Of a stretch of DNA of 64,000 bases, positions 9,200 to 32,109 are shown one piece after another. This DNA comes from Allosaccharopolyspora coralli. GTDB lineage: Bacteria > Actinomycetota > Actinomycetes > Mycobacteriales > Pseudonocardiaceae. The notes under the pieces are model-generated. The model saw only the letters and a program-made list of their open reading frames with translations. It was not told where the DNA came from and searched no databases. Where the stretch lies: positions 2,356,001-2,420,000 of the forward strand of contig NZ_CP045929.1 of the NCBI RefSeq assembly GCF_009664835.1. Reading direction: 5' to 3'. The first letter of the stretch is position 1; each line of letters opens with the position of its first letter. A program made the position numbers and the translations under genes.

Positions 9200-9414
9200 G
9201 CGAGATGAGCGAGAACACCGACCCCGACTGGGAGTACCGGCCGCTGCGCCTGCCACCCGGGATCACCCGGATCAGCGCGGCGACCCAACTCACGATCCAC
9301 GCCGAATTCTCCGGCTGGGAACTCTCCCGCGTGCTCCTCTACTCCGACGGCAGCCGCAAGGTCTGGCTGCGCCGCAAACGCAGCACCCCCGGCATCCGCG
9401 AACTACGCACCTGA
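9196..9414 (+). CDS. DUF5703-type small protein
   Basis: 72 residues. The GTG start overlaps the preceding stop as GTGA. The sequence DWEYRPLRLPPGITRISAAT, then LTIHAEFSGWELSRVLLYSDG and RKVWLRRKR is the compact conserved pattern of DUF5703 proteins, which are common next to propeller lipoproteins in actinomycetes. It is soluble, probably one alpha-beta unit; function unknown. Overlap with the lipoprotein gene argues for a shared job. Confidence 0.82.
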   Translation: MSEMSENTDPDWEYRPLRLPPGITRISAATQLTIHAEFSGWELSRVLLYSDGSRKVWLRRKRSTPGIRELRT

Positions 9415-9537
9415 ACTTCTCGCACCGACGTCCGAGGGGTGTTGCGCTCAGCGACACTGCACCGACAGTCTTCGCACCGCCGACGCAGCTCGACCCGAGC
9501 GACCCTCAAGCGCATCCACCTGCGACGAAGGGAAGTC

Positions 9538-11115: not shown

Positions 11116-11247
11116 CCTCGGTGCTGGTTTTTGGGAAGCGCAAGGGATGAAATAATGCCGATGGAGTAATTTTGGTCGACACTGAAACAATAGATACACT
11201 TAAAGTGTTTGGGCACACGCCAGTTCGCCCCTGCAAGGAGGCTCTGC

Positions 11248-11436
11248 TCAGCCGCGCCACCACCGCAGGCGATGCCACCATCGCACCGACGAGGTCGGTG
11301 TCCTCTCACTGACACCGACCGATACCGTGTTGCGCGCCGGGAGCTCAGGACGGTCGGCGCGCCACTGTTCCACCACGCGGTCGACGTTCAGCGGAGCCAA
11401 CGGCACCTGCGGGCCGTCAGCAGGCTTGCGCAACGA
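11248..11436 (-). pseudogene. DUF1992 (DnaJ-subfamily C28-like) gene, 3' half cut off by the transposon
   Basis: Reading the minus strand from the transposon boundary gives LRKPADGPQVPLAPLNVDRV, VEQWRADRPELPAR and a tail ending at 11248. This continues exactly the protein that stops at the other transposon end (37268): joining ...LNQRIVAS with LRKPADG... keeps the frame if one copy of the 5-bp duplication is removed. The family pattern N-R-I-V-x(2)-x-R-K-P-x-x-G-P is restored. The half cannot be translated alone. Confidence 0.92.
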
Positions 11437-11474
11437 GGCCCTGTACTCCCGAAGCTGTCCTGAGCCGCAAAGTA
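11437..11474 (+). repeat. Left terminal inverted repeat (38 bp)
   Basis: Starts GGCCCTGTACTCCCGAAGCT and ends GCCGCAAAGTA. Identical in reverse complement to 24354-24391 and 37230-37267. The family length of 38 bp fits Tn3 elements, although the outermost bases are GGCC rather than the usual GGGG. Confidence 0.93.
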
Positions 11475-11522
11475 GCGGAGGCTCCATCCAGGGCTGTGCT
11501 CGATGATCGATAGCGTGACGTT

Positions 11523-14447
11523 GTGCAGCGCGAGTGGCAGCCGGATGAGCTGGTGGAGTCGTGGACTCTGGTGGGCGATGACTGGCGTCTGGTGGGCAAC
11601 AAGTCCGGGTCGACGCGGCTCGGGTTCGCGTTGTTGCTGAAGTTCTTCGAGATCGAGGCGCGGTTCCCGCGGTATGCCGAGGAGGTCCCGTCGCAGGCGG
11701 TCGGCTACGTCGCTGAGCAGGTTGGCGTGCCTGCCGAGGAGTTCGGCCGCTACTCGTGGCGCTCTCGCTCGATCGAGTATCACCGCGCCCAGATCCGGAC
11801 CGCGTTCGGTTTCCGGGAGTTCTCCCGGGGTGATGAGGACAAGCTGGCCGGGTGGTTGGCCGAGGAGGTCTGCCCGGTTGAGCTGCGTGAGGATCGGTTG
11901 CGGCAGGCGGTGCTGGTGCGGTGTCGCGCCGACGGGATCGAGCCACCCGGACGGCTGGACCGCATAATCGGTTCGGCCCGCTCGACGTTCGAGCAGCGGT
12001 TTTGCCACCGCACGGTCGAGCGGTTGCCCGAGGCGAGTGTGGCCGCGCTGGAGGTGCTGATCGCCGAGGACGACTCCGCAGGCCGGGGGCTGTTGGCGGA
12101 GCTGAAAGCCGATCCCGGTCAGATCGGGTTGGAGACGGTGCTGGCCGAGATCGACAAGCTGACGGCAGTGTGGCAACTGGGGCTGCCGGAGGGGTTGTTC
12201 ACCGACACCTCGGAGAGGCTGGTGGTCGCCTGGCGGGCGCGAGCGATGCGTTCGTACCCATCCGATCTGCGTGAATCGCCCCGCGAGGTGCGGCTGACGT
12301 TGTTGGCGGCGCTGTGCTGGATGCGGCAAACCGAGATCACTGATGCGTTGGTCGACCTGCTGATCGGCCTGATTCACAAGATCAACACGAAGGCGGACCG
12401 GAAGGTCGAGCGCGAGCTCACCGACGATCTGCGCCGGGTGCGGGGCAAGGACGGCATCTTGTTTCGGATGGCCGAGACGGCGCTGGAACACCCGGACGAG
12501 CAGGTGCGCACCGCCCTGTACCCGGTGGTGGGTGAGACCACGCTGCACGATCTAGTCAAGGAAGCCAAAGCCAACCAGCAGGCTTTTCAAGCTCGGGTGC
12601 GTACGGTGTTGCGAGCCTCGTATTCGAACCACTATCGGCGGATGCTGCCGCCGCTGTTGGCCGCGTTGGATTTTCGGTGTAACAACACGGCCTACCGGCC
12701 GATCATGCACGCCCTGGAGCTGCTGCAACGCTATCGCGACGTCGACGGCAAGGTGCGTTTCTACGCCAGCGAGGAATCAGTGCCGGTCGACGGGGTGGTG
12801 CCGAAAGCCTGGCGGGAGGCGGTGATCGACGAGCGAGGTCGGATCGAGCGCATCCCGTACGAGCTGTGCGTGCTGGTGTCGTTGCGGGAGGCGCTGCGGC
12901 GCCGCGAGGTCTACGTGGCCGGGGCCAACCGGTGGCGCAACCCCGAGGACGATCTCCCGGCCGACTTCGAATCCACCCGGGACGTGCACTACGAGGCGCT
13001 GCGCAAGCCCCGCGAGGCCGAGACCTTCATCGCCGACCTTAAACAGCGCATGACCGCGGCGCTGGACCGCTACGACGCCGCTATGGACCAGGGAAGCACC
13101 GGCGGTGTGAGGATCACGCGACGCCGCGGCGAACCGTGGACCACGGTGCCCAAGCTGGAACCCTTGCCGGAGCCCCGGATGCTGACCGCGGTCAAGGACG
13201 AGGTGATCCGTCGGTGGGGCACGATGGACCTGCTGGATGTGCTCAAGGACGCCGACTTCCTCACCGAGTTCACCGGCGAGTTCTCCTCGGTGGCCTCCCG
13301 CGAAAACCTCGATCGGGACACTCTGCGGCGTCGGCTGCTTCTGGTGTTGTTCGCACTGGGCACCAACATCGGTATCCGCAAGCTCGTGGCCACCGGCGAA
13401 CACGAGGAGACCGAGCGCGAGTTGCGGCACGTGCGTCGGCACTTCATCACTCGCGACAACCTGCGGGCGGCGGTGGCCAAGTTGGTCAACGCCACGTTCG
13501 CGGCCCGTGATCCACGGTGGTGGGGCGAAGGGACCGCGTGTGCCAGCGACAGCAAGAAGTTCGGCTCGTGGGAGTCGAATCTGATGACCGAATGGCACCA
13601 GCGCTACGGCGGGCCCGGAGTGATGATCTACTGGCACGTCGAGCGCCAGCACACCTGCATCTACTCCCAGCTCAAATCCTGCTCATCGTCGGAGGTCGCG
13701 GCGATGATCGAAGGTTTGCTGCGGCACTGCACCAACGCTGACATCGAGGCGAACTACGTCGATACCCACGGCGCCAGCGTGGTCGGGTTCGCCTTCACCG
13801 AACTGCTCGGCTTCCGCCTGCTGCCCCGGTTGAAAAACATCGGCTCGATTCGGCTGTACCGGCCCGACGACGGCGGCAGCTGGGCGCATCTCGGACCGGT
13901 ACTGACCAGACCGATTAACTGGGAGCTCATCGCCCAGCAGTACGACCAAATGGTCAAATACGCCACCGCTCTGCGGTTGGGCACGGCCGAGTCGGAGTCG
14001 ATCCTGCGCCGGTTCACCCGCGGCGGGCCCAAGCACCCCACTTACCAGGCCCTGGAAGAACTCGGTCGCGCAGTGCGCACGATCTTCGTCTGCGACTACC
14101 TCGCCGACCCCGAATTGCGCCGCGAGATTCACGGTGGGCTGCAGGTCGTGGAGAACTGGAACTCCGGCAACGGCGTCATCTTCTACGGCAAGAACAGCGA
14201 ACTCACCGGCCCCGACCGCGAGACTGCTGAAGTTTCCATGCTCGCCCTGCACCTCCTCCAGTCGGCACTGGTGCACGTCAATACCCTGCTGCTGCAAAAC
14301 GTCCTGGATAGCCCCGGCTGGGACGAACTCCTCGGACCCGATGAACGCCGGGCGCTGAGCCCGCTGTTCTGGTCCAACATCAATCCCTACGGGCGCTTCC
14401 GCCTGGACATGACCACGCGCCTCGACCTCCCAGTCCCGTCTCACTGA
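11523..14447 (+). CDS. tnpA: Tn3-family transposase TnpA
   Basis: 974 residues, normal for Tn3 TnpA. The DUF4158-like N-terminal DNA-binding part (about 1-170, e.g. [20 protein letters not shown]) is followed by the large Tn3 catalytic region. The DDE residues are Asp676 ([11 protein letters not shown]), Asp747 ([13 protein letters not shown]) and Glu877 ([12 protein letters not shown]). It cuts at the 38-bp ends and drives replicative transposition through a cointegrate. Start GTG/TTG-type codon at 11523 lies 48 bp inside the IR. The first 1292 bp of the gene are repeated in the truncated copy at 35890-37181. The frame is intact, so the enzyme is probably active. Confidence 0.95.
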
Positions 14448-14492
14448 TCGATCCCGTTGCGGACGGAATCGAAGCTCTCGATCGAAACGGCG

Positions 14493-14518
14493 TGCCAGCG
14501 GAGTTCTCTGGGCTGGCA
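14493..14518. terminator. Stem-loop after tnpA
   Basis: TGCCAGC (14493-14499) pairs with GCTGGCA (14512-14518) around a 12-base loop, 45 bases after the tnpA stop and before the GNAT remnant. It is a plausible terminator insulating the cargo from tnpA. Confidence 0.4.
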
Positions 14519-14529
14519 GGATTTGTCAT

Positions 14530-15017
14530 GTGGAGTGCCTGGTCGAACTGCAGCCCGACGACGCGGGGGAGGTGCTAACGCTGCAGCGGGCCGCGTACGT
14601 CACTGAGGCGCAGACGTATAGAGATCCGTGTCTTCCGCCGCTGCTGGAGTCGCTTAATCAGGTCAGTGCCGAGCTCGCCGAGTCGGAGGTGATCGGGTTC
14701 GGCTGGCGCGAGTCGAACGGTCGGCTGGTGTCCGCAGTCCGGCTCGGGTCGGTAGGGCAGACCCGAGCCGTGCAGAGGTGTGCCGTCTGGCCGTCGCGCC
14801 GGATTGGCAGGGTCGGCAGCTCGCCAGCAGCTTGCTTCGAGGTATCGAGGAACGGTTGCCCAACGAGGTAACCGAGCTACGGCTGTTCACCGGCGAACAC
14901 AGTGCTGGCAACCTCCAGTTGTACGGGCGGCTTGGCTATACCGAGACGTGTCGAGAATCCACTCTGGACGGCTACGCGCTCGTACACCTCCGAAAATCTC
15001 GTACCGGCGCGAGCTGA
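14530..15017 (+). pseudogene. Frameshifted GNAT acetyltransferase
   Basis: Frame 1 from GTG 14530 encodes a typical GNAT first half (VELQPDDAGEVLTLQRAAYV, EVIGFGWRESNGRLVSAVRL). Homology then jumps to frame 3: AEVCRLAVAPDWQGRQLASS (the acetyl-CoA loop), ELRLFTGEHSAGNLQLY, YGRLGYTETCR, ending at 15017. The shift falls between about 14740 and 14770, near GGGTCGGTAGGGCAG. In one frame the motif A half is lost, so the gene as read is inactive, unless the shift is a sequencing error. It is the first cargo gene after tnpA. Confidence 0.75.
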
Positions 15018-15287
15018 GCACGCCGCGCATCAGCAGCTGTCACAAGCTGTCCGCAGCGGGATCCCTTATGAAAGCGGCCGAGGGGCGGGCGGGCGCATCC
15101 GCGTCTCGTTCGTGTCGGGGGATGTTTCCAGCGGCGATTTCGCCGGTGGCGATCAGCGCTCGACCGATGTCGTATCCGGGGTCAGGATGAGGTCGACGCG
15201 CCCGATGCGGCCTCGCCTGCGATCGCCGACCGCACAGTCTCGAGCGTGTGACCGCACCCCGATTCGCACCAGACCAGAGGAGTCGCC

Positions 15288-15914
15288 TTGAGCTCTGTGC
15301 ACCGTCCGCACGCCCGCCGCGTGCTGCCCTCGTTTGTCGAGCGCACGCCCTACGGAACGCAGGAGTCCGACCCGTACAACAAACTGTTCAGCGAACGCAT
15401 CGTCTTCCTCGGTGTGCCCGTCGACGACGTCTCGGCCAACGACATCATGGCCCAGCTGCTGTATCTGGAATCCGACGATCCCGACCGCGGCATCGATGTC
15501 TACATCAACTCACCCGGTGGTTCGTTCACCGCACTGATGGCCATCTACGACACCATGCAGTACCTGCGGCCCGAGATCAGCACCGTCTGCCTGGGCCAGG
15601 CAGCCTCGGCCGCGGCGGTGCTGCTCGCCGCGGGCACACCGGGCAAGCGCATCGCTTTGCCGAACTCGCGAATACTGATCCACCAGCCCTCCATCGAGGG
15701 CATCTACGGACAAGTCTCCGACCTGGAAATCCAGGCAGGCGAGGTGGAACGCATGCGCGGGCTTCTCGAATCGACCCTGGCCACCCACACCGGCAACACT
15801 CAACAGCAGGTCCGCGCGGACATCGAACGAGAAAAGATGCTCACCGGCGAGCAGGCCAAGGACTACGGCATCGTCGACGAGATCATGCCCTACCGCAAAC
15901 TCGCCAAGACGTGA
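15288..15914 (+). CDS. clpP: ClpP-type serine protease carried by the transposon
   Basis: 208 residues from TTG 15288, with AGAGGAG upstream. Catalytic Ser107 (CLGQAASAAAVLL), His132 (ILIHQPS) and a probable Asp178 (ADIEREK) are in place, as is the YINSPGG oxyanion-hole motif, so it should be an active 14-mer subunit. The usual second Asp of the D-x-x-R-D motif is Glu here. Chromosomal clpP genes come as tandem pairs next to clpX; this solitary copy in cargo is an accessory paralogue. Target-based resistance to ClpP-directed antibiotics is a known role of extra ClpPs in actinomycetes and one possible reason for mobility. Confidence 0.92.
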   Translation: MSSVHRPHARRVLPSFVERTPYGTQESDPYNKLFSERIVFLGVPVDDVSANDIMAQLLYLESDDPDRGIDVYINSPGGSFTALMAIYDTMQYLRPEISTVCLGQAASAAAVLLAAGTPGKRIALPNSRILIHQPSIEGIYGQVSDLEIQAGEVERMRGLLESTLATHTGNTQQQVRADIEREKMLTGEQAKDYGIVDEIMPYRKLAKT

Positions 15915-16693: not shown

Positions 16694-17419
16694 ATGAGCA
16701 TGTTGTCTGCTGATCACCGCGATCTCGTTCGTGCGGCTGTGGCCCACGCGGAGTCCGTCAACGATGACGGTGACCACACGGTGGCGGCTGCGCTGCGGTT
16801 GCAGAGCGGCGCAGTTGTCCTCGGAGTCAACACCTACCACTTCCTTGGTGGACCCTGCGGCGAGATCAGCGCCCTGTCCAATCGCGCCGCTACCCGCCCC
16901 GACGACTCGATTATCGCGGTCGCCGCTGTGTATGGCCCGACCGGAGATGTCCTCCCACCGTGCGGGAAGTGCCGCCAGATCTTGCTCGACATCGCCCCCA
17001 CCATCCGCTGCGTTGTCCGCGACGCCAACGGGCTCACCGCTGTCCCGGTGCGTGACCTGCTCCCCCATGCCTTCGACTGGCGAGCCGCCGAGCAACCCCA
17101 GCGGCTCTACATGTGGGAAGGCTACGAAGACAGTATCCGCGACGGCAGCAAGCGCCAGACGATCCGTGTCGACGACCCGTTCCGCCCTGGCGAGGCCCGG
17201 ATCGTCTTCGAGAAGGATTCCGGCGACGTGGTGGAAATCCCGGCCGACATCGCCTCGGTCAACACTGCAGCACGCGCAGCACTCACCGAGCAGGACGCAC
17301 AGCATGACGGCTTCACCGACCTCGCGGAACTCCACGCCGCACTCGACCAGCACTACCCCGGGCTCGGGCCTGAAGATCCCATCGACATCGTGTCGTTCAC
17401 GCTCCACACCGACAAATAG
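16694..17419 (+). CDS. Blasticidin-S-deaminase-like cytidine deaminase fused to an ASCH domain
   Basis: 241 residues from ATG 16694. Residues 1-130 are a zinc cytidine deaminase fold: Cys55 and catalytic Glu57 (LGGPCGEISAL), Cys90 and Cys93 (LPPCGKCRQILLDI). HTVAAAL, GVNTYHF, GGPC and LPPCGKCRQ resemble blasticidin S deaminase more than housekeeping Cdd. Residues about 137-241 are an ASCH domain (LYMWEGYEDSIRDGSKRQTI, RVDDPFRPGEARIVFE, DPIDIVSF), a PUA-like RNA/nucleoside-binding fold that includes N4-acetylcytidine hydrolases. The predicted substrate is a cytosine nucleoside or nucleoside antibiotic. It precedes the nucleoside operon on the same strand but is separated by two other genes. 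Confidence 0.85.
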   Translation: MSMLSADHRDLVRAAVAHAESVNDDGDHTVAAALRLQSGAVVLGVNTYHFLGGPCGEISALSNRAATRPDDSIIAVAAVYGPTGDVLPPCGKCRQILLDIAPTIRCVVRDANGLTAVPVRDLLPHAFDWRAAEQPQRLYMWEGYEDSIRDGSKRQTIRVDDPFRPGEARIVFEKDSGDVVEIPADIASVNTAARAALTEQDAQHDGFTDLAELHAALDQHYPGLGPEDPIDIVSFTLHTDK

Positions 17420-17477
17420 CGCCTTCTGATGAGGATCGACAACCGGGACGATCAGCCAGTCTGACTGGTCTGTGTGC

Positions 17478-18011
17478 TCAGAGGCTGCGGGTGTAATGCT
17501 GCAGGAGGGCTTGCTCACCGGAAGGTGCGGTTCCTATTTCTGCGTTCCCGTGAGGAGCGAAGTCTGCATTGGTCAGCGTGCGCACAGAGGTCGTGTTGTC
17601 GTTGACGGTCCGGGCATGCAGCTCGCGAAGTCCCATGCGGGTGCCGAGTTCGGCCACACATTCCACAGCCTGGTGCGCAGCTCCGCGGCCACGTGCCGCT
17701 GCGGCGAGCCAGAATCCGATCTCGGCGCGGTTGTCGGCGATGTCGAAGAGTACGACGCTGCCCAGGAACTGGTCCGAGCTGTTGTCGGCGATGGCCAGTA
17801 CAGCGAGGTTGCCCGCGATGAGGCCGGGCGTGATGATCGAGTCGATCTGCTCGCTGACCAGAGCCGGGGTGTAGTGCGGTTCGGGAAGATGCGCGAACCG
17901 ACGCACGTCCGTGTCGTGGCTACCGTTGGCGTACGCGGCGGCGTCGCTGTGAGTTAACGGTCTGATCTTCACGCCTGCCTGTGTGACGGGCAACAGCGTC
18001 CGGATGTTCAC
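17478..18011 (-). CDS. GNAT acetyltransferase (RimJ-like)
   Basis: 177 residues from ATG 18011. VKIRPLTHSDAAAYANGSHD is a RimJ/RimL-type start; FLGSVVLFDIADNRAEIGFW precedes the CoA loop AAARGRGAAHQAVECV, and LHARTVNDNTTSVRTLTNAD is the usual motif B. It acetylates an amine of a protein N-terminus or small molecule. It is divergent from a TetR regulator with a clear operator in the 54-bp gap, so it is probably the regulator's main target. That arrangement suggests an inducible modification enzyme, for example for an antibiotic or nucleoside. Confidence 0.85.
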   Translation of the reverse strand: MNIRTLLPVTQAGVKIRPLTHSDAAAYANGSHDTDVRRFAHLPEPHYTPALVSEQIDSIITPGLIAGNLAVLAIADNSSDQFLGSVVLFDIADNRAEIGFWLAAAARGRGAAHQAVECVAELGTRMGLRELHARTVNDNTTSVRTLTNADFAPHGNAEIGTAPSGEQALLQHYTRSL

Positions 18012-18020
18012 CCAACCTCC

Positions 18021-18043
18021 TAAAGTGATTACCGTTCACTTAA
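18021..18043. promoter_or_regulatory. Operator for the TetR regulator
   Basis: TAAAGTGA (18021-18028) and TCACTTAA (18036-18043) form an inverted repeat matching at 7 of 8 positions with a 7-base centre, between the divergent GNAT and TetR starts. Symmetry, length and place fit a TetR-family operator controlling both genes. Confidence 0.65.
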
Positions 18044-18065
18044 CAGATTAGCAGGTGAGGTAGTG

Positions 18066-18725
18066 ATGTCGTACTGGTTGCAGGAGCGGCAGACGCCGCA
18101 GCGCAACCGCGCGCTGTCCCCGCAGACGATCGCGGAAGCCGCGCTGGCGCTCCTGAATTCCGAGGGCGATGACCAGTTGAGCGTGCGCACACTGGCGCAA
18201 CGGCTGGAGGTTGTGCCGTCGAGCCTGTATCGCCATGTCCGTAACCGCGACGACATCCTAGATCTGACGCTGGATGCAGCACTGGTCTCCGACCAGCAGG
18301 TCGCGGAGGCGATTACCAGTGAAGATCTCGTCGGACTGTTGCTGGTGTGGCGATCCCACCTACTCCGGCATCCCTGGGCAATCACCCACGTGATGCGGCG
18401 TCCCCCGCTCGGGCCTGGCTACCTCGCTCTGTCCGACCGATTGTGCGCGCTGTTGTACGAACGCGGTGTGCCCGACGAGGAGTTGCTGAACACGTCATAC
18501 GCAATGAGCGATTTCGTGCTCGGGTGCGTCCTAGCACAACGCCATGCCGAAACGACACGCCATCAGTGGCCAACATCACTGGTCAACGACAACCACCCCT
18601 ATCTGCACCATGCCGTGTCCGCACACCAGCCAAGCTGGCAAGCAGTCATTCGACGCGGACTCGAGCGCCTTGCAGGGAACTGTCCACAATGCCACCACAG
18701 CACTCGCGACGCGGCCTCGCACTGA
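18066..18725 (+). CDS. TetR/AcrR-family regulator
   Basis: 219 residues from ATG 18066 (GAGG six bases upstream; GTG 18063 adjacent). The HTH is LSPQTIAEAALALLNSEG ... LSVRTLAQRLEVVPSSLYRH VRNRDDIL. The C-terminal part (LLVWRSHLLRHPWAITHVMR, LYERGVPDEELLNTSYAMSD) resembles the TetR class C-terminal ligand domain. It should repress itself and the divergent GNAT gene through 18021-18043, and may respond to a compound handled by the cassette. Confidence 0.9.
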   Translation: MSYWLQERQTPQRNRALSPQTIAEAALALLNSEGDDQLSVRTLAQRLEVVPSSLYRHVRNRDDILDLTLDAALVSDQQVAEAITSEDLVGLLLVWRSHLLRHPWAITHVMRRPPLGPGYLALSDRLCALLYERGVPDEELLNTSYAMSDFVLGCVLAQRHAETTRHQWPTSLVNDNHPYLHHAVSAHQPSWQAVIRRGLERLAGNCPQCHHSTRDAASH

Positions 18726-18757
18726 GGAACCCCCTGCGTACGTACGGCAGGGGATCG
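18726..18757. repeat. Hairpin repeat, left copy (borders the nucleoside operon)
   Basis: GGAACCCCCTGCGTACGTAC followed by GGCAGGGGATCG: CCCCTGC pairs with GCAGGGG around a CGTACG core. 26 of 32 positions match the sequence at 22706-22737. One copy lies right after the TetR gene and the other right after the operon, so together they bracket 18758-22705. They could be related terminators or borders of an inserted cassette. Confidence 0.55.
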
Positions 18758-19010
18758 ACAAATGAAACAGTGCTTTGCTTCGGGTCCAGCCGCGAGTCTA
18801 GTTGTCACCGACGCGCGGATCCCGGTCGTCACAGCCTTCGCGAGGTAGTGATCTTCGGGAACGAAGGGTTCGGGCAGAGCTGTTGGCTCGTGGTCCACGG
18901 AGAGGATACGGTTTGCCAGTACACGGGAGCTCGCGCCGAGCGGGCTGAGAGGACGGCTAGGGCCGTCGACCGCTGAACCTGCTCCGGATAATTCCGGCGA
19001 AGGGAGCACG

Positions 19011-20045
19011 GTGACTGCGACCAATCGGCTGCAGTTCGAGGACAGCCCGTCGGGAAGCTACGACAGCTTCCATCACGCTTATGTCGAGCAGCTGCGTCGG
19101 GTGTTCTGCTCGCCGAGGTACCGCAACGCTCCTCGAGGGTTTGCCAGCCGGGAGCGGCTCGCTGCACAGTTTGACCTGACCGATCCTCGGCAGCGGGTGC
19201 CGTTCCTGCCTGCCCGGCGAACCAATATCGTGTTCAATTTCGCTGAAGCACTATGGTACCTCGCCGCCCGTGACGATCTGGACTTCATTGGCTACTACGC
19301 CCCGCGCATGCACCGGTACTCCATGGATGGGCGGTCGCTGACCGGCACCGCGTACGGGAAAAAGATCCTCGGTGGGCAACCAGGTCGTGATCAGTGGCGC
19401 ATGGTGGTCGATCAGCTGGTTGAGGACGCCGATAGCAAGCGCGCGGTGTTGCAGATCTTTGACGGGACTGAGTTGCGGGTGCCGGATAACCTCGATGTCT
19501 CCTGCACGTTGGGTCTGCAGTTCCTGTTGCGTGAGGGCACGCTGCACGCCATCGCCTACATGCGCGCCAACGATGCCTACCGGGGCCTGAGCAGCGATCT
19601 GTTTTCCTTCACTTTCCTGCAGGAGTTCCTGGCTACTCAACTCGGTGTCGCGCTGGGCAACTACACGCACACGGCTGGGTCGTTGCACATATACGCCCCG
19701 GATGACGACAACGTGCAGGCGGTGCTGACCGACCCCGCCGGGGCTGCTAGCCCGCCGTTTACCTTCCCTGCCATGCCAGCTCAGGACAATTGGGCGGCGC
19801 TCGGTGAGGTCTTGGAGGTGGAGGAAGCCCTGCGCACCAACCGACATGGGCTTTCCGCTGATCTCGGCGGGCTGGGACTACCGCACTACTGGGCCCAAGT
19901 GTTGGGGCTCTTTGAGGTGTATCGCCGACTCCGCCACGACGAGCCGGCGCCTGGGGAGATGCTCACCGCGCTCGACCCGATCTATCAGCATCTTCTTCTA
20001 CAGCGTTGGGGTCCTCGGCTCCGGACGGCAGAGGTGAGCGGGTGA
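19011..20045 (+). CDS. Thymidylate-synthase-superfamily enzyme, CMP/dCMP hydroxymethylase-like (MilA type)
   Basis: 344 residues from GTG 19011 with AAGGGAG upstream. The fold signatures are present: catalytic Cys165 (LDVSCTLGLQFLLREG), then YMRANDAYRGLSSDLFSFTF in place of the QRSxDxxLGxPFN phosphate/Asn region, and YTHTAGSLHIY near the end. Loss of the CH and QRS motifs of true thymidylate synthase argues against dTMP synthesis. CMP 5-hydroxymethylase of mildiomycin biosynthesis has this type of sequence, so the likely reaction is folate-dependent hydroxymethylation (or methylation) of a pyrimidine nucleotide, probably cytosine. First gene of a four-gene operon with 4-base overlaps. Confidence 0.8.
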   Translation: MTATNRLQFEDSPSGSYDSFHHAYVEQLRRVFCSPRYRNAPRGFASRERLAAQFDLTDPRQRVPFLPARRTNIVFNFAEALWYLAARDDLDFIGYYAPRMHRYSMDGRSLTGTAYGKKILGGQPGRDQWRMVVDQLVEDADSKRAVLQIFDGTELRVPDNLDVSCTLGLQFLLREGTLHAIAYMRANDAYRGLSSDLFSFTFLQEFLATQLGVALGNYTHTAGSLHIYAPDDDNVQAVLTDPAGAASPPFTFPAMPAQDNWAALGEVLEVEEALRTNRHGLSADLGGLGLPHYWAQVLGLFEVYRRLRHDEPAPGEMLTALDPIYQHLLLQRWGPRLRTAEVSG

Positions 20046-20776
20046 GCACCTCCTGGGAAGCTGACGAGATCGCCGCGGGCTTCGAGGCCTATGACGACCT
20101 GCCCGAGCGCATCCTGGGCTATCCGTGCGTGTTCGACGCCCTCCGGCTCGACGACGCCACTCGGGTGCTCGACTACGGCTGTGGACCGGGCAAGGTCGCA
20201 GAACGAATCGTGGGTGACTACGGCTGTGCTGTGGTCGCGGTGGACTCATCGCCGGCGATGCTCACGATCGCCCAACGGGAGCGTGCCCACCCTCGCATCG
20301 ACTATCACCACGTCAGCGGGGAACAGCTTTCCTTCCTGGCCGACGGCAGCATCGACGCGGCCATGGCTTGCTACGTATGCATCAACATCGGCTCCTTGGA
20401 CCGCATCAAGAGCATCGTCGCCGAGATGTACCGCGTCTTGCGCCCTGGCGGGCGCTACGCGGTACTCGACACCAACCCCAACACGACCGGTGTGCAGTTC
20501 TCGACTTTCCGTAGCGGTGAGCCCGGTCGCCGCTACAGCACCGGTCAGCAGCGCCGGGTTCTGCTCCGTCGACCCGATGGCCAGGGACTCGAACTGATCG
20601 ACTACCACTGGCCCTCGCGCACGTACCGGGAAGTACTGGCCGGTGCCGGTTTCCGCGACATCACCCTGCATGAGCCGGTATCGGGCGAAGGCGAGCGTCC
20701 GTCCAAGCCCCATGGGCCCGCGTGGGGCAACGAGACCACCCGGCCGCCGTTTCTGATTGTGGTGGGAGAGAAGTGA
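20042..20776 (+). CDS. SAM-dependent class I methyltransferase
   Basis: 244 residues from GTG 20042, overlapping the previous stop as GTGA. Motif I is TRVLDYGCGPGKVAERI (residues about 41-57), acidic motif II VVAVDSSPAML, then SFLADGSIDAAMACYVCINI and YRVLRPGGRYAVLD. This is a small-molecule type (Methyltransf_11/25), not a DNA or rRNA methylase. The context suggests a pyrimidine nucleoside or its sugar as acceptor. Translationally coupled on both sides. Confidence 0.9.
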   Translation: MSTSWEADEIAAGFEAYDDLPERILGYPCVFDALRLDDATRVLDYGCGPGKVAERIVGDYGCAVVAVDSSPAMLTIAQRERAHPRIDYHHVSGEQLSFLADGSIDAAMACYVCINIGSLDRIKSIVAEMYRVLRPGGRYAVLDTNPNTTGVQFSTFRSGEPGRRYSTGQQRRVLLRRPDGQGLELIDYHWPSRTYREVLAGAGFRDITLHEPVSGEGERPSKPHGPAWGNETTRPPFLIVVGEK

Positions 20777-21333
20777 GCAGCGACCATGCCAGCGACAGGG
20801 GCACCCCGCCGGTGGCCAGCCCAACGTCGGTGTTTCTCGCCGGCCCGTTCAAGGCGCTGGTCGACCCCGAGGCTGGCCAGCTCCGTTCGTTCGTGCGATC
20901 CCGTTACGAAGCCCTCATCGACCACCTGGAATCGGGCGGCTATACCGTCCACAACGCCCATAAGCGGGAAGGGTGGGGCGCTGATTTCCTCCAGCCGGAG
21001 GACTGCAGCCGCCTGGACTATGAGCAGATCCGGGGTTGCAGCCTGTTCGTGGCCTTCCCCGGTGATCCCGCTTCGCCTGGCACCCATATCGAAATCGGCT
21101 GGGCGGCCGCCCTGGGCAAACCGATCATCTTGCTCCTCGAGGACGGGCACACCTACGCCTTCCTCGTGCGTGGATTGCACACCATCGCCGACGTCACCTA
21201 TGTAGCCATGCCAGCCGACGAGATCGGCCTCGAAGGCTTCGCCACAGCGCTCGCTGCGCTCGAAGACCGTCTCGAGCTTTCCACAGTGGAGCACCCTCGC
21301 GAGACCTCCGAGCCACGGACAGGCCCTCGGTGA
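20773..21333 (+). CDS. Nucleoside 2-deoxyribosyltransferase-fold CMP N-glycosidase-like protein (MilB/BlsM type)
   Basis: 186 residues from GTG 20773, overlapping the upstream stop as GTGA. The pattern SVFLAGPFKALVDP (nucleotide loop), VHNAHKREGWGADF, LDYEQIRGCSLFVAFPGDPA, SPGTHIEIGWA (probable catalytic Glu107) and YAFLVRGL matches the hydroxymethyl-CMP/CMP hydrolases MilB and BlsM of mildiomycin and blasticidin S biosynthesis. Those enzymes split (hydroxymethyl)CMP into free base and ribose 5-phosphate. With the MilA-like enzyme two genes upstream the pair would first modify and then release a cytosine base. Confidence 0.82.
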   Translation: MSSDHASDRGTPPVASPTSVFLAGPFKALVDPEAGQLRSFVRSRYEALIDHLESGGYTVHNAHKREGWGADFLQPEDCSRLDYEQIRGCSLFVAFPGDPASPGTHIEIGWAAALGKPIILLLEDGHTYAFLVRGLHTIADVTYVAMPADEIGLEGFATALAALEDRLELSTVEHPRETSEPRTGPR

Positions 21334-21441
21334 GTGTCCCCACGGTGCTCGACGAGGTGCGCGCCACCCACTGTCGGAGCAGCCAACCTGCGGGCCTTTT
21401 CCAGCAACAGAGCCATACCTGGCAGGGAGGTGGAGTCAGTC

Positions 21442-22680
21442 GTGCTGGCCGAGCAGTTCGACACGTTCTTGATAGACCTTGACGGAGTTGTCTACCTCGA
21501 CAATTTCGCTCTGCCGGGCGCCGTTCAGGCACTGGCTCAGCTGCGCGCGCAAGGCAAGAGGGTGCGCTTTTTGACCAATGATCCACGCCCGGCACGAGAC
21601 GAAGTCCTGCAGCTGCTCGCCGAGATCGGGATCGAGGCCACACTTGAGGAGATCGTCACCTGCGGCTGGGCGACAGCCCTGCACCTGCGCGAGCAAGGAT
21701 GGAACCGGGTCTATGTTGTCGGCAGCGTGAGCCTGGCCTCCGAATTGCGTCGCGCCGGATGTGAGATCACCGAGACAGAGCAACCGCAGGCTGTCGTCAT
21801 CGGTTGCGATCAGCACGTGTCGTATCCGCATCTCGACCACGCAGCCACCCAAATCACCTCCGGGGCCCGATTCGTGGCCACCAACGCCGATGAGTCGTTT
21901 CCCAGTTCCACCGGGCCCCGCCCTGCCACTGGAGCACTCGTGGCCGCCGTGCAGACGGCCACGGGCCAGCGCCCGCTCATCATCGGCAAACCGTACCCAT
22001 CGATGTTTCGTGCCGCCCTGGAAGGAGTGCCGCCTGACGCCCGCGCCGTGGTGGTCGGCGATAGCCCACATACCGACATCCTCGGCGCCCACCAACACGG
22101 ACTACCCGCCATCCTGATCTCACCGACCCCCACAGTGTTCGCCTCCCCGCGGGACTTCCGCGCCCCCGACGCCACACTGTCGAACCTCACCGAGCTATTC
22201 ACCCCAGGAACCCATCACCGACAGTGGAGCACCCCCTCCTTTCCGTGGCCTGAGGCAGTCAAGGCAGGGGTCGCCGCCGTCGTGTTCAACCACTCCGGGC
22301 ACGTACTACTACAACGACGCGCCGACAACGGCCAATGGGGACTGCCCTCCGGACACGTAGAACCCGGTGAGACCGTCAACGAAGCCATCACCCGCGAGGT
22401 AGCCGAGGAAACCGGACTGCAAGTGCAGGTCTCGCACCTCATCGGTGTCTACTCCCACCCCAGCTCCCAAAGCTTCGCCTACCCCTCCGGGCAGGTCAGC
22501 CAATTCATCACCTCATGTTTCCGCTGCCAGACCGTGCAGGAAGAGCTGCATTGGGATGGAGTCGAAACGCTCGAGGCCGCATTCTTCTCTCCCGACAACC
22601 TGCCAGCCGACCTACTGCCCATGCACCCGCAGTGGCTCGCTGACGCCCTCGCCAACCACCCCACCGCCTACATCCGATAG
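21442..22680 (+). CDS. HAD phosphatase-Nudix hydrolase fusion
   Basis: 412 residues from GTG 21442, preceded by GGGAGGTGGAG; the more upstream GTG 21334 touches the previous stop but adds 36 residues without homology. Residues 1-255 are a NagD/HAD-IIA phosphatase: Asp12 and Asp14 (FLIDLDGVVYLD), RFLTND, IGKPYPSMF, VVVGDSPHTDILGA. Residues about 270-400 are a Nudix domain with the full box from Gly304 to Leu326 (GHVEPGETVNEAITREVAEE, then TGL). One polypeptide can thus hydrolyse a nucleoside diphosphate linkage and remove a phosphate. It ends the nucleoside operon. Confidence 0.88.
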   Translation: MLAEQFDTFLIDLDGVVYLDNFALPGAVQALAQLRAQGKRVRFLTNDPRPARDEVLQLLAEIGIEATLEEIVTCGWATALHLREQGWNRVYVVGSVSLASELRRAGCEITETEQPQAVVIGCDQHVSYPHLDHAATQITSGARFVATNADESFPSSTGPRPATGALVAAVQTATGQRPLIIGKPYPSMFRAALEGVPPDARAVVVGDSPHTDILGAHQHGLPAILISPTPTVFASPRDFRAPDATLSNLTELFTPGTHHRQWSTPSFPWPEAVKAGVAAVVFNHSGHVLLQRRADNGQWGLPSGHVEPGETVNEAITREVAEETGLQVQVSHLIGVYSHPSSQSFAYPSGQVSQFITSCFRCQTVQEELHWDGVETLEAAFFSPDNLPADLLPMHPQWLADALANHPTAYIR

Positions 22681-24353: not shown

Positions 24354-24391
24354 TACTTTGCGGCTCAGGACAGCTTCGGGAGTACAGGGCC
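24354..24391 (-). repeat. Internal right terminal inverted repeat (38 bp)
   Basis: Begins TACTTTGCGGCTCAGGACAG and ends AGTACAGGGCC: the exact reverse complement of the left IR and identical to 37230-37267. It closes the inner transposon after tnpR. The five bases outside (TAATC) do not match the left flank. Confidence 0.92.
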
Positions 24392-24773: not shown

Positions 24774-24912
24774 GGCGTTTTGCCCGCGTTCGCCTGTCCG
24801 TCGGTTTTCGTCGGGCTTCGGCTGGAACGCGCACCAATGGTTCCGAGTCCGGCCTTGCCCTGGGGGCATAGCCGTGGCGGGGCTGGCCAGCACGATCGAC
24901 GAGGAGATCAGC

Positions 24913-25836
24913 ATGACTGTTACTGAAAGTTCCACAATCAATATTCAGCCTGTGGCAGGTTCCCTGGGCGCTGTCGTGTCCGGTGTTCGGCTGGAGCCGG
25001 ATTTGCCGGAGGACGTTGTCGCGCGCATCCGGGCTGCGGTGCTAGAACACAAAGTTATCTACCTGCGCGGTCAAGACCATCTCGACGACGATGCCCAGGC
25101 CGTGTTCGCACGCCGGCTCGGCGATCTGACCACGGCTCATCCGACGGTGTCCGGTGTGCAGGACCAGGCCAGCGTGCTTCCCATCGATGCAGAGCGGGGA
25201 CGTGCCAACAGCTGGCACACCGATGTGACGTTCGTGGACCGTCCGCCCTCGTTCTCCCTGCTGCGCGCGGTCGTGTTGCCGCCCTATGGCGGCGATACGG
25301 TCTGGGCCAACACGGTCGCGGCGTACCAGAAGTTGCCGCATCAGCTGCGCGAACTCGCCGAAGGCTTGTGGGCACGGCACACCAACGACTACGACTACGC
25401 CGCCTCGCACGGTTCCGCCCCGGAGACTGAAGCCGCCGTGGAACACCGCAAGGCGTTCACCTCGACCGTCTATCAGACCGAGCACCCCGTGGTCCGGGTG
25501 CATCCGGAGACCGGTGAGCGTGCGCTGCTGCTCGGGCATTTCGCCCAGTCGTTTACGGGGTTGCCGAAGTCGGACTTTGGCGCGTTGTTCGCTTTGTTGC
25601 AGAGCTATGTGACCGAGCTGGAGAACACGGTGCGGTGGCAGTGGGCTCCCGGCGACCTCGCAATCTGGGATAATCGGAGCACGCAGCATTATGCGGTGTC
25701 GGACTATGCCCAGGACGTGCCGCGGCGGCTGCATCGGGTCACGGTGGCCGGGGAGATCCCGGTCGGTGTGAACGGGCAGCACAGTGTTGCCAAACGGGGC
25801 GACGCTGCCGCCTACTCCTCGCCCGCAGCCAGCTGA
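24913..25836 (+). CDS. TauD/TfdA-family Fe(II)/2-oxoglutarate dioxygenase
   Basis: 307 residues from ATG 24913, preceded by GAGGAGATC. The facial triad is His102 and Asp104 (NSWHTDVTF) and His274 (RRLHRVTVAGE); WDNRSTQHYAVSDY is the usual pre-triad segment. Family members oxidise taurine, alkyl sulfates or other sulfonates with 2-oxoglutarate and O2, releasing sulfite or sulfate. The position at the head of an SsuABC-monooxygenase operon supports an organosulfur substrate. First structural gene after the Cys leader peptide. Confidence 0.93.
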   Translation: MTVTESSTINIQPVAGSLGAVVSGVRLEPDLPEDVVARIRAAVLEHKVIYLRGQDHLDDDAQAVFARRLGDLTTAHPTVSGVQDQASVLPIDAERGRANSWHTDVTFVDRPPSFSLLRAVVLPPYGGDTVWANTVAAYQKLPHQLRELAEGLWARHTNDYDYAASHGSAPETEAAVEHRKAFTSTVYQTEHPVVRVHPETGERALLLGHFAQSFTGLPKSDFGALFALLQSYVTELENTVRWQWAPGDLAIWDNRSTQHYAVSDYAQDVPRRLHRVTVAGEIPVGVNGQHSVAKRGDAAAYSSPAAS

Positions 25837-26074
25837 CACCGTTCGCGGGTAAACCACTTTCATCCGAGGGTTTGAAAGAACCGGGATGCGGATTCGATAG
25901 CGGGTTCCGGCGAGGATCCGTTCGTGTCTTTGCCAGGAATCGCGGCGCAAGACGTCACGGTTCTTGCGAGAGCACCTCGGAAATAACGGTGGTAGTGCGC
26001 AGCAGGAGGCCATAGCGCCATTCGCCGCGAAACCGAAACACCCATGATCGCATCGAGAGAATTCGAGCGCACAC

Positions 26075-27106
26075 GTGAGTATTTCACATCTGCGGCCGGT
26101 GAGTAGACGAAAAGTGCTGCGATCCGGCCTCTCAATGATCGCCGCCGGTACCGTTCTCGGTGGATGCTCAGCCGGTGCCACCGGATCCGACCGCTCGGGA
26201 AAGGTGGTGCGCTACCAGGGATGGTCGGGGGACGTGACCTGGCCAGAGCTTGCCCAGGATCTGGGCCTGTTAGGCGATATTCGGCTGGAGTGGATCGGTA
26301 ATACCATCAGCGGACCGCAGGATGTCCAGGCCACAGTGACCGGTGATGTCGACATCGGCGGTGCGTTCAATGGGGCGATCCTGCGTCTCGCGGCCGCGGG
26401 CGCGCCGGTTACGGCCGTTTTGGGGTATTACGGGTCGGACCGGGGCAGCTACGCGGGCTATTACGTGCCCGAGGACAGCCCGATCCGATCCCCCCGGGAT
26501 TTCGTCGACAAGAAGGTGGGAGTCAATACCCTCGGGGCCCATCACGAGGACACGCTGTCGATCTACCTGGAACGCGGCGGGCTCACGCCGGAGGAAATTC
26601 GTTCCGTCCAACTGGTCGTCGTACCCCCGGTGAGCGCGGAGCAGGCATTGCGCTCGGGTCAGCTCGACGTCGCTGTATTGTCCGATTTCAAGCGGGAGAA
26701 AGCCGTCGCGCGCGGCGGGATCCGGCCGGTGTTCACCGATGTGGAACTGCTCGGGGCGTTCACCGGGGGCTGCTATGTCATGCGCGACGATTTCGTGGCG
26801 ACGAACCCGGACACGACCAGAACGCTGGTGGAGGGGAGCGCCCGGGCTTTGCGCTGGGCGCAAACACGCCCCCGCGACGAGGTCGTCGACCGGTTCGTGA
26901 GCCTGATCCGGCGGCGCGGGCGCAACGAGAACGCGGAGACCATACGTTTCTGGCGTAGCACCGGGGTGGCCGGTGTGGGCGGTTTGATCGCCGAGCGTGA
27001 ATTCACCATATGGCTGGACCACCTCATCGCCGACGGACGGGTCGAACCCGGCCAGATCGCTCCGCAACAGCTCTACACCAACGAATTCAACCCGTTCCGA
27101 CGGTAG
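26075..27106 (+). CDS. SsuA/TauA-like substrate-binding lipoprotein
   Basis: 343 residues from GTG 26075 (GTG 26099 possible). SRRKVLRSGLSMIAAG then TVLGGCSAG combines a twin-arginine-like motif with a lipobox, so the protein is exported and lipid-anchored. The body (VVRYQGWSGDVTWPELAQDL, TGDVDIGGAFNGAILRL, PIRSPRDFVDKKVGVN) is that of NMT1/SsuA-type periplasmic binding proteins for sulfonates. It delivers substrate to the ATPase and permease encoded next. The 238-base gap upstream (25837-26074) shows no gene. Confidence 0.88.
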   Translation: MSISHLRPVSRRKVLRSGLSMIAAGTVLGGCSAGATGSDRSGKVVRYQGWSGDVTWPELAQDLGLLGDIRLEWIGNTISGPQDVQATVTGDVDIGGAFNGAILRLAAAGAPVTAVLGYYGSDRGSYAGYYVPEDSPIRSPRDFVDKKVGVNTLGAHHEDTLSIYLERGGLTPEEIRSVQLVVVPPVSAEQALRSGQLDVAVLSDFKREKAVARGGIRPVFTDVELLGAFTGGCYVMRDDFVATNPDTTRTLVEGSARALRWAQTRPRDEVVDRFVSLIRRRGRNENAETIRFWRSTGVAGVGGLIAEREFTIWLDHLIADGRVEPGQIAPQQLYTNEFNPFRR

Positions 27107-27127
27107 CCAGACCCAATAGAGGAGATC

Positions 27128-27982
27128 ATGACCATCATCGATTTTCACGGGGTATCCAAAAGTTTCCGGGTGCGTCCGGACAAAGGGGAACAGGACGCCG
27201 AGCTCAGCGTGCTCGAGGACGTCGACCTGCGCATCAATTCCGGCGAGCTGGCCGTGATTGTCGGGCCCAGCGGCTCCGGCAAGTCGACCATGCTCGACCT
27301 GCTGGCCGGACTGACCGAGCCGACCCGAGGCGAGATCCGGTTGGACGGCACACCGATCACCGGCCCCGGGCTCGACCGGGGAGTGGTGTTTCAGCAGTAC
27401 GCATTGCTGCCCTGGCGAACGGCGCACGGAAACATCGAGTTCGGGCTCGAGGCCAAGAAAGTCCCCACTCAGCAGCGCCGCGAGCGTGCACTGGAGTATT
27501 TGGAGCTGGTCGGGCTCGCCGGTTTCGAGGACCGCTATCCGCACGAGCTCTCCGGAGGTATGAAACAGCGCGTCGCGATCGCGCGGAGTCTGGCCTTCGA
27601 TCCGGAAGTGCTGCTGATGGACGAACCGTTCGCCGCGCTGGATGCTCAGACCCGCGAGATTCTCCAGGAGGAGCTCCTCAACATTTGGCACCGCACCGGC
27701 AAAACGATCGTGTTCATCACCCACGGTATCGACGAGGCCGTGTACTTGGGGCAGCGAGTCGCCGTACTCAGCGCCCGGCCGGGACGGATCAAGCAGGTCG
27801 TCGATATCGAGTTGCGCGACCGCACGGAGCACGACGACATCCGTTCGGAGCCCGAGTTCGCCCACTACCGACACCAGGTCTGGAGCCTGGTCCGATCTGA
27901 AGTCGAGGCCGGCAACGGGCCGGCAGCGACAACCGGGGACACCGACGCGAAGAGCGAGAAGGAGGCGTTCCCCGTTGGCTGA
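27128..27982 (+). CDS. SsuB/TauB-like ABC transporter ATPase
   Basis: 284 residues. Walker A is [12 protein letters not shown], the Q-loop [13 protein letters not shown], the signature [16 protein letters not shown], Walker [13 protein letters not shown], and the H-loop [10 protein letters not shown]. The LPWRT after the Q-loop is typical of nitrate/sulfonate/taurine importers. AGGAG lies just before the ATG. It powers import of a sulfonate or sulfate ester at the inner face of the membrane. Overlaps the permease gene by 8 bases. Confidence 0.94.
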
Positions 27983-28787
27983 GGCAGTACTGGAGCGTCA
28001 GCGCAGTTCCGCTGCCGCACCAGTGACAGTGATCCGCGCCCACCTCATAAGGGCGTTCAAGTTATCGGTGGCGCTGGTCGCGTTCCTGCTGCTGTGGGAA
28101 ACGGTGCCGCGCATCGGCTTAGTCGAAAAGATCTTCCTGCCGCCGTTCAGCACAGTCGTGGCCACCTGGTTCGAGCTGCTGGTCAACGGGCAGCTACTGG
28201 CAAACCTCGGCGCGAGCCTGGCGCGGTCGCTGGCCGGATTCCTGATCGCGATCACGGTCGCGGTCCCGCTGGGCGTGGTAATCGGCTGGTACCGGATAGC
28301 CGACGAACTGCTCAACCCACTGCTCGAGGTGTTCCGCAACACCGCGGCCCTGGCACTACTACCGGTGTTCGTGCTGCTGCTGGGCCTGGGCGAGACCTCA
28401 AAGGTGTCGTTGATCGTGTTCGCCTGCACGTGGCCGATCCTGCTGAACACGATCAGTGCCGTGCGGACAGTGGACCCACTGTTGATCAAGTCCGCACGCT
28501 CCCTGGGATTCACACCGCTCCCACTATTCGGCAAGGTCGTGCTTCCCGCAGCGGTGCCGATGATTTTCACCGGGATCCGGCTAGCCGGGGCGAACTCGAT
28601 CCTGGTCCTGGTGGCAGCGGAGATGGTCGGCGCCAAAGCCGGGCTCGGATACCTGATCAACATGTCCCAGTACAACTTCCAAGTGCCGCAAATGTATGCC
28701 GGGATCGTCACGATCTCGCTGCTCGGACTCGCCTTCAACGCGGTGCTCGTCGGAATCGAACGCAGGTTGTCCCGCTGGCGGACATAG
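27975..28787 (+). CDS. SsuC/TauC-like ABC transporter permease
   Basis: 270 residues from TTG 27975 (AAGGAGG upstream), inside the end of the ATPase gene. Six membrane segments; the EAA loop is [20 protein letters not shown], which contacts the ATPase. [20 protein letters not shown] and [14 protein letters not shown] are typical of the sulfonate/taurine class. It forms the homodimeric channel with the SsuB-like ATPase. Confidence 0.93.
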
Positions 28788-28942
28788 GCGCCCGCCGGTC
28801 ATTGACGTATGCCCACCCGGACAGCGGCGAGATACCGACGGCCTCGGCGGGGATGAGCGTTCATCACGATCGCCCCCCGTCGGGGCCGGTTCCCCGGGAC
28901 GATCACGGAACCTCGCCTCCATTGACACGAAAGGTCTCAAGC

Positions 28943-30286: not shown

Positions 30287-30319
30287 TCCGCAGGAGCACA
30301 AACCCCTTCGGAGACTCCC

Positions 30320-31348: not shown

Positions 31349-31466
31349 GTCACGCAACCTTCACCCCCGGCAGCACCGCCACGGCCTGAGCAGTGCGCCT
31401 ACCACACCCCCAGCGAACACACGCCGAGCATGTTGCGCGGGGGACCTCGTAAGCACGTTGTTCGGT

Positions 31467-31495: not shown

Positions 31496-31559
31496 CCGCT
31501 CCAGACTCACTGCCCCCCGCCACCCAACAACGGTCACATCCAAGTCCTGGAGGTTGCTC

Positions 31560-32108: not shown

Positions 32109-32109
32109 G

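Follow-up and report, generated by a model that had tools for sequence, protein, structure and literature searches.

The window analysed here is a 64,000-nucleotide stretch (positions 2356001-2420000) of the single-contig, 4.83-Mb genome of Allosaccharopolyspora coralli. It holds a four-gene operon (19011-22680) encoding a protein of the thymidylate synthase (TS) fold, a methyltransferase (MT), a MilB-like N-glycosidase (NG) and a fusion of a HAD and a Nudix domain. The start of the operon is overlapped by a match to the thiamin pyrophosphate (TPP) riboswitch. An earlier interpretation made from the letters alone (the sequence-only reading) had grouped these four genes with a deaminase-ASCH gene upstream as a transposon-borne cassette for a modified cytosine nucleotide. 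All five genes are real, intact and open on the + strand, and the first three operon genes overlap by four bases as described, with GTGA at both the TS/MT and the MT/NG joint. The riboswitch had been missed.

18913-19022, + strand: TPP riboswitch (THI element), RF00059, overlapping the operon start
19011-20045, + strand: TS-like gene, predicted MilA/BcmA-type cytidine monophosphate (CMP) 5-hydroxymethylase of the TS fold
20042-20776, + strand: methyltransferase dependent on S-adenosylmethionine (SAM); PF13649, E 2.9e-19
20773-21333, + strand: MilB-like gene, predicted MilB/BcmB-type hydroxymethyl-CMP (hmCMP) N-glycosidase
21442-22680, + strand: HAD-IIA/Nudix fusion; PF13344, E 1.8e-22, and PF00293, E 1.1e-22

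The TS gene starts with GTG at 19011. The reading frame of the HAD-Nudix gene opens at 21334, with an N-terminal stretch outside the region that aligns with relatives; its start is likely GTG 21442 or the in-frame GTG 21430, and its Pfam scan was made from 21439.

The enzymes of the operon

Judged by its matches and residues, the TS-like protein is a MilA/BcmA-type CMP 5-hydroxymethylase and not a thymidylate synthase. Among solved structures in the PDB it matches MilA with E 2.8e-104 and the best true thymidylate synthase with E 2.6e-13, which agrees with its earlier description as MilA-like. On the accompanying claim that it lacks the dTMP motifs, the models differ: the Pfam TS model does match (E 4.9e-19; the sole PF00303 match in the genome), while the protein stays far under the cut-offs of the six NCBIfam TS models listed (best 56.8 bits versus 327). 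The equivalents of MilA E68, K133, C155, A176, D186, H216 and Y218 are all kept. In MilA, Lys133 and Ala176 are reported to set CMP over dCMP, and Asp186 cytosine over uracil (PMC5175136); Cys155 is the nucleophile. Among 24 TS rows besides MilA, K133 was found in 23 (the exception is locus L024) and A176, D186 and C155 in all 24. One locus, L026, was left out of this alignment because only a 39-residue frame was recovered.

The MilB-like protein is likewise assigned by sequence as a MilB/BcmB-type hmCMP N-glycosidase. It matches MilB in the PDB with E 2.7e-46 and is nearest to MilB, a CMP N-glycosidase and BlsM. It carries the motifs FLAGPFKALV (hmCMP) and GTHIEIGWA. The hmCMP-specific enzymes linked to MilA homologues are described as having FL[GA][GA]PF[RK]xL[LVT], with Arg or Lys at the hydroxymethyl-binding site, and BcmB has Lys there, as the window NG does (PMC4081090). 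Among the 22 aligned NG sequences other than MilB, 20 keep this Lys; L009 carries Trp instead, and in L007 the region is lost. The sequence-only reading had called this protein MilB-like and would have been contradicted by a grouping with plain deoxyribosyltransferases; the nearest relatives of the protein agree with the name.

Bacimethrin synthesis in Clostridium botulinum is described as running from CMP through hmCMP to 5-hydroxymethylcytosine, followed by methylation. The trio responsible is a CMP hydroxymethylase, an hmCMP N-glycosidase and a SAM methyltransferase, and Paenibacillus has a gene set of the same three enzyme kinds (PMC12345177, PMC5627462). Genes for a hydroxymethylase, an N-glycosidase and a methyltransferase are adjacent in the window operon, as in the bacimethrin clusters. 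From this analogy we infer that the window methyltransferase is an O2-methyltransferase of 5-hydroxymethylcytosine, the methyl acceptor position being putative. Its next best match in its own genome reaches only E 5.8e-7. Relatives occur in all 14 other loci with both TS and MT, and it is 35-68% identical to those in the TS-scan loci described below. The sequence-only reading had thus recognised the MilA- and MilB-like enzymes of the pathway and overlooked that with the methyltransferase they form the bacimethrin trio. Bacimethrin is reported to take three enzymes to make (PMC12345177), and the gene complement of a complete peptidyl-nucleoside antibiotic would therefore not be expected here.

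The fourth protein, the HAD-Nudix fusion, is likely a candidate self-protection (immunity) enzyme. Its Nudix box and HAD motifs are intact. A HAD-Nudix protein, YzgD, is reported from a Paenibacillus bacimethrin/thiaminase operon (PMC5627462), and the window protein matches the YzgD-type architecture (N-terminal HAD-IIA, C-terminal Nudix, about 410 residues), a likeness by description that the sequence-only reading had overlooked. Pyridoxal phosphate, the reported substrate of the YzgD HAD domain (PMC5627462), may be seen as resembling hydroxymethylpyrimidine (HMP) phosphate. The Escherichia coli Nudix protein NudJ is tabulated as hydrolysing methoxy-HMP pyrophosphate and methoxy-TPP and as giving bacimethrin resistance (PMC5158307). 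The host genome of the window has ThiC and ThiD-type kinases; the host therefore probably synthesises thiamin, which would expose it to its own product. The E. coli HAD protein Cof reportedly came from the same kind of screen as NudJ.

The fusion is 61% identical to a protein of Actinopolyspora mortivallis and 50% to one in a Priestia transposon, and both lie in the corresponding position. A six-row tree placed these three together, apart from three haloarchaeal plasmid relatives, and a survey of the family (E<=1e-60) found the fusion in 2 of 249 genomes, its own and A. mortivallis. The haloarchaeal megaplasmids encode full-length HAD-Nudix proteins of about 49-50% identity (L057 6983-8230, L058 7001-8233 and L059 from about 6001).

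The riboswitch and the relatives of the operon

The riboswitch match covers RF00059 in full length (1-105) with 51.3 bits (E 3.8e-9). A TPP riboswitch here would tie the operon to thiamin metabolism, at a score below the Rfam cut-off. Across the whole genome, RF00059 gave five matches, three over the cut-off; the window match is one of the two below, and a riboswitch upstream of the genome's thiC also falls below it, at 52.5 bits. The aptamer match crosses the GTG start at 19011, and ligand binding could therefore hide the ribosome site. Counterparts lie upstream of the operon in four of the fetched stretches of relatives, or loci (L-numbers): L007 (45.3 bits), L043 (63), L056 (79.8) and L023 (89.2). 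That of L007, the A. mortivallis locus (the same as G511 by coordinates), is in the same place as in the window and is also below the cut-off.

A contig scan of genomes with the TS as query yielded 22 loci. Ten include the MT gene (L007, L008, L016-L020, L022, L023 and L026), ten have a TS without it (L009-L015, L021, L024 and L025) and two are fragments. A full NG gene is present in seven of the ten MT loci; L007 keeps a remnant and the stretches of L023 and L026 have none, the latter beginning at a contig end. TS, methyltransferase and N-glycosidase genes therefore occur together in other genomes, the co-occurrence that the sequence-only reading had proposed to look for. Thiaminase I is encoded in six of the ten (L008, L016-L019 and L022; tblastn with the L016 and L018 genes as queries) and was not found in the fetched stretches of L007, L020, L023 and L026. 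Thiamin genes are present in six (L016-L020 and L022). Taken together, seven of the ten have thiaminase I and/or thiamin genes, and two more (L023 and L007) have an upstream TPP riboswitch. The thiamin query genes were named by eye and then checked against NCBIfam and Pfam. The thiaminase I proteins of L016 (523.7 bits) and L018 (330.8 bits) exceed the cut-off of 175 for NCBIfam thiaminase_BcmE, and L016 ThiD and L018 ThiG exceed their NCBIfam and Pfam cut-offs, respectively. For L018 ThiO and ThiF those families are the best match, with scores slightly under the cut-off.

Within the order of the window genome, the MT was found in 6 of 397 genomes and is adjoined by a TS in four. The methyltransferase alone is insufficient evidence for the gene set, because the other two positive genomes (G403 and G530) have no TS in the fetched 20 kb. 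One locus from the same family as the window genome (L042, the same as G482) carries ThiE, ThiD, TS, MT, NG and HAD genes consecutively, flanked by ThiG and TenA, and its order from TS to HAD is that of the window. A survey of the phylum for the TS (E<=1e-30) returned 3 of 396 genomes: its own and two weak matches (L005 and L006; 34-37% identity) with no N-glycosidase match.

In a TS tree of 27 rows, none of them a named ThyA, the window groups with A. mortivallis (support 100/100) and next with L042 and a Streptomyces plasmid locus, L055 (93/88). The 14 MT-type rows require two label changes on this tree, compared to a mean of 8.5 after shuffling, and none of 500 shuffles was as low. The deep branches are poorly supported, and a single origin of the MT type appeared in 17% of bootstrap trees.

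The ten TS loci without MT share features of their own. All have a ThiD-like kinase downstream of the TS, 29-38% identical to Paenibacillus ThiD; that of L012 is barely over the NCBIfam HMP-P kinase cut-off. Seven of them, from Streptomyces and Nocardia, also have in common an oxidase that among NCBIfam models matches ThiO best, with a score under the cut-off. These loci may represent a second thiamin-analogue pathway from 5-hydroxymethylcytosine. An Actinophytocola metagenome-assembled genome has short TS pieces at contig ends only (L027 1-141 and L028 9978-10118), which were left out of operon counts. They are 96-99% identical to the TS region and each exactly 141 bp long; the contigs are named k141, and the pieces are probably assembly-graph overlaps. 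A near-identical operon may be present in that sample.

Probable bacimethrin synthesis and its alternatives

We consider it very likely that the operon 19011-22680 makes bacimethrin and protects its maker. Judging from family and residues, the TS-fold enzyme would convert CMP to hmCMP, and the N-glycosidase would split hmCMP into 5-hydroxymethylcytosine and ribose-5-phosphate. Following the published cluster, O-methylation at the 2-oxo position by the methyltransferase would yield bacimethrin, which is 4-amino-5-hydroxymethyl-2-methoxypyrimidine and a toxic mimic of HMP, the pyrimidine of thiamin. Thiamin enzymes of competitors and of the host would then turn bacimethrin into 2'-methoxythiamin pyrophosphate, which is reported to inhibit thiamin-dependent enzymes (PMC12345177). 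The HAD-Nudix protein would hydrolyse the methoxy intermediates, first the pyrophosphate and afterwards the monophosphate, permitting host survival. Plentiful TPP would lower expression through the riboswitch, such that the antivitamin would be made under thiamin scarcity.

Several observations weigh against this interpretation. The riboswitch match (51.3 bits) is below the Rfam gathering score of 54.3, and a scan of the window at the gathering threshold returned no riboswitch. Free-energy folding of the match is weak (z -1.80; 13 of 200 shuffles as stable). Across the set of 15 loci with both TS and MT, window included, just five have a riboswitch before the operon; eight of the other ten were scanned at the gathering threshold only, and L042 and L055 at a permissive one. 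The TPP riboswitches of L042 and L022 lie in other parts of the fetched stretch and do not precede the operon, and no riboswitch or thiamin gene was found in L055. Loci L044 and L045 have a methyltransferase without a TS. The A. mortivallis N-glycosidase has an in-frame internal deletion (L007, about 11724-11990) that leaves an 89-residue frame without the catalytic motif, beside open TS, MT and HAD-Nudix frames. No structure close to the methyltransferase has been solved (best E 5e-9), and its methyl acceptor is inferred only. The operon includes no exporter, ThiD or thiaminase gene, and Paenibacillus nuruki thiaminase I and ThiD queries matched nothing in the window at E<=1e-8. As for immunity, the complete HAD-Nudix fusion occurs in 3 of the 15 loci (the window, L007 and L056); in L042 the HAD protein lacks a Nudix domain, a separate Nudix gene occurs in several more, and L008 and L055 have no match to either domain. 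YzgD is reported inactive on thiamin monophosphate, TPP and thiazole phosphate (PMC5627462). The annotated neighbours of the haloarchaeal proteins in L057 and L058 include no bacimethrin or thiamin gene, L059 being unannotated.

A related product is a very unlikely alternative: 5-hydroxymethylcytosine methylated at N or at the hydroxymethyl O, which would still be a thiamin antivitamin. The methyl position is not readable from sequence, the match to solved methyltransferases is distant, and the actinobacterial group that holds the window TS is separate in the tree from the majority of the other MT-type rows; however, the methyltransferase is homologous to those of thiaminase/bacimethrin operons at the identities given above. 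It is very unlikely that the operon belongs to a mildiomycin-like or other nucleoside pathway supplying 5-hydroxymethylcytosine for a larger antibiotic. MilA and MilB are indeed the best solved matches, and 10 of the 22 TS-scan loci lack this methyltransferase. Against this, the operon has just four genes, the Pfam-scanned genes of the transposon (not every open reading frame) include none that resembles a further step, and the methyltransferase and riboswitch tie the operon to thiamin. MilA also lies outside the TS clade of the window, in a tree whose deep branches are poorly supported.

Salvage or detoxification of an exogenous modified cytosine, with the HAD-Nudix protein as the main function, would fit its two hydrolytic domains and the haloarchaeal fusions that occur without the trio. 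We regard it as highly improbable, considering that a MilA-type TS is by family a synthetic hydroxymethylase, here with its catalytic residues kept, and that the trio is found elsewhere with thiaminase I or a TPP riboswitch. Nucleotide-based phage defence, which the sequence-only reading had listed as an option, is barely credible. The operon is transposon cargo, and PADLOC matches the methyltransferase (mad2, E 3.1e-15) and the Nudix domain (PDC-S07, E 1.4e-12), but these matches cover common domains only, and the TS, the N-glycosidase and the deaminase match nothing. No phage TS homologue was found at E<=1e-30 in 50,697 records, no methyltransferase relative was confirmed in viral contigs in a search for close relatives, and the TS residues are of the ribonucleotide (CMP) type. 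We therefore rejected phage origin or defence, given that PADLOC gave no system-specific match and the records searched no phage TS homologue at that threshold. Of the three options in the sequence-only reading (maker, resistance or salvage set, defence), a maker combined with a self-resistance candidate is what we retain, and its broader proposal of a compact mobile pathway making a modified cytosine with MilA- and MilB-like enzymes is supported.

The Tn3-family transposon and likeness to known systems

The operon is cargo of a composite Tn3-family transposon of 25.8 kb (11437-37267, 25,831 bp). "Transposon-borne" was thus correct and an understatement. The other features of the element and its flanks are as follows.

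11432-11436, no strand: target-site duplication AACGA, left, equal to 37268-37272
11437-11474, + strand: left 38-bp terminal inverted repeat, exact
11523-14447, + strand: Tn3-family transposase, 974 residues; PF01526, E 1.4e-126
16694-17419, + strand: deaminase-ASCH fusion, blasticidin-S-deaminase-like, 241 residues
17478-18011, - strand: GNAT gene, between the deaminase and the operon
18063-18725, + strand: TetR-family regulator, cargo; PF02909, PF00440
23631-24299, + strand: resolvase (serine recombinase); PF00239, E 1e-39
24354-24391, - strand: internal 38-bp inverted repeat, exact, right end of the left Tn3 unit
35847-37181, - strand: second transposase copy, 3'-truncated, part of the repeated right end
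37230-37267, - strand: right 38-bp terminal inverted repeat, exact
37268-37272, no strand: target-site duplication AACGA, right, abutting the interrupted DnaJ C28-domain gene
37273-37587, - strand: DnaJ C28-domain gene fragment; PF09350, E 1.1e-20

The transposase, the 38-bp terminal inverted repeats and the 5-bp target duplication are those of the Tn3 family. From the right end inward, 1378 bp repeat the left end exactly in inverted orientation, joining the flanks restores the open frame of the DnaJ C28-domain gene, and GC content is 64-66% within the transposon versus 69% outside. Because of the matching ends, the AACGA duplication and the interrupted gene, 11437-37267 is most simply described as inserted as one composite unit. 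An element ending at the internal repeat (24391) was rejected, since the 5-bp flanks mismatch there and match at 37268. Elsewhere in the genome there is another copy of the terminal repeat with three mismatches (G000:C1:699310-699347).

The deaminase-ASCH protein has an ASCH domain (Pfam E 3.9e-9) and a cytidine-deaminase domain (E 3.2e-5; 24.2 bits versus a Pfam cut-off of 25), and blasticidin-S deaminases are its nearest solved structures (E 6.1e-26). The sequence-only reading had made it a member of the module. It is not adjacent to the operon, as the GNAT and TetR genes stand between. No counterpart was found at E<=1e-4 in the 22 TS-containing loci, and at E<=1e-40 the only genome with a match, among 121 of the order, was its own. 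We therefore rejected it as a pathway member; it appears to be unlinked transposon cargo outside the operon. The TetR regulator also has no counterpart at E<=1e-4 in the 22 TS-scan loci. Other cargo includes a ClpP protease gene (15288-15914; PF00574, E 9.7e-71) and, in the right half (24874-34541), genes for a TauD dioxygenase, an NMT1-like ABC transporter, a luciferase-like monooxygenase, a DHBP-synthase-like protein, an FMN reductase, SBP56 and a TauE exporter. This right-half cassette apparently serves organosulfur use. The NMT1-like ABC transporter (26075-28787) was considered as an HMP transporter and rejected, given its TauD, luciferase-like monooxygenase, FMN reductase, SBP56 and TauE neighbours.

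Of the 15 loci with both TS and MT, two gave a Tn3 transposase match (E<=1e-6) within the fetched stretch: the window and L056, the latter on Priestia megaterium plasmid pPmC-129-1 (NZ_CP069398). In L056, paired inverted repeats (7408 to 15198; 85% complementary over 60 nt) bound a unit of about 7.8 kb with a Tn3 transposase, a TPP riboswitch, NG, TS, MT and HAD-Nudix genes, in the order NG-TS-MT, and a tyrosine recombinase gene as the sole other annotated gene inside. The transposase is 49% identical to that of the window over 993 aligned positions, and the terminal repeats differ. The 5-bp flanks, TACAA and TTCAA, are one base apart and form no exact target duplication. Among 72,556 plasmid records, a single one carried this unit.

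We tentatively suggest, as a possibility short of an even chance, that the operon is a self-contained competition module (an antivitamin with dedicated HAD-Nudix immunity and a TPP riboswitch) captured at least twice by Tn3-family transposons, once on an actinobacterial chromosome and once on a Priestia plasmid. If true, hosts would poison neighbours that scavenge thiamin when it is scarce, and daughters losing the element would be penalised, much as with a bacteriocin-immunity or addiction module but by means of a small molecule. The pathway is already known; the novelty lies in its carriage by Tn3 and in a four-gene layout that lacks thiaminase and has HAD-Nudix. In the open-licence papers searched, no report was found of Tn3 elements in two phyla carrying an antivitamin together with an immunity candidate. 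Bacimethrin reportedly acts as an allelochemical in natural waters (PMC12345177, PMC12637900). Its patchy distribution across phyla would be easier to understand if its genes travel as Tn3 cargo with an immunity candidate and a thiamin sensor. The operon would also give a minimal expressible cassette, and the tolerance of a producer to its own antivitamin would become testable via one protein, the HAD-Nudix fusion.

Among known systems, MilA and MilB of mildiomycin and BlsM of blasticidin synthesis are the closest solved structures and differ in pathway context; BlsM is reported to prefer CMP and has Met where the window NG has Lys (PMC4081090). The A. mortivallis locus has the riboswitch, TS (70% identity), MT (68%) and HAD-Nudix (61%) in the order of the window, with the N-glycosidase reduced to its 89-residue remnant and no Tn3 transposase match in the fetched stretch. 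The bcm operons of C. botulinum and Paenibacillus share the hydroxymethylase, N-glycosidase and SAM methyltransferase of the window (PMC5627462, PMC12345177), and those of Paenibacillus are reported to include a TPP riboswitch, YzgD (Nudix with a HAD domain) and a further HAD hydrolase (PMC5627462). Thiaminase I and a pyrimidine kinase are reported in the operon for both. The window operon has no thiaminase I or thiamin genes and differs from the bcm operons further in its TS-MT-NG order and in its carriage by a Tn3-family transposon.

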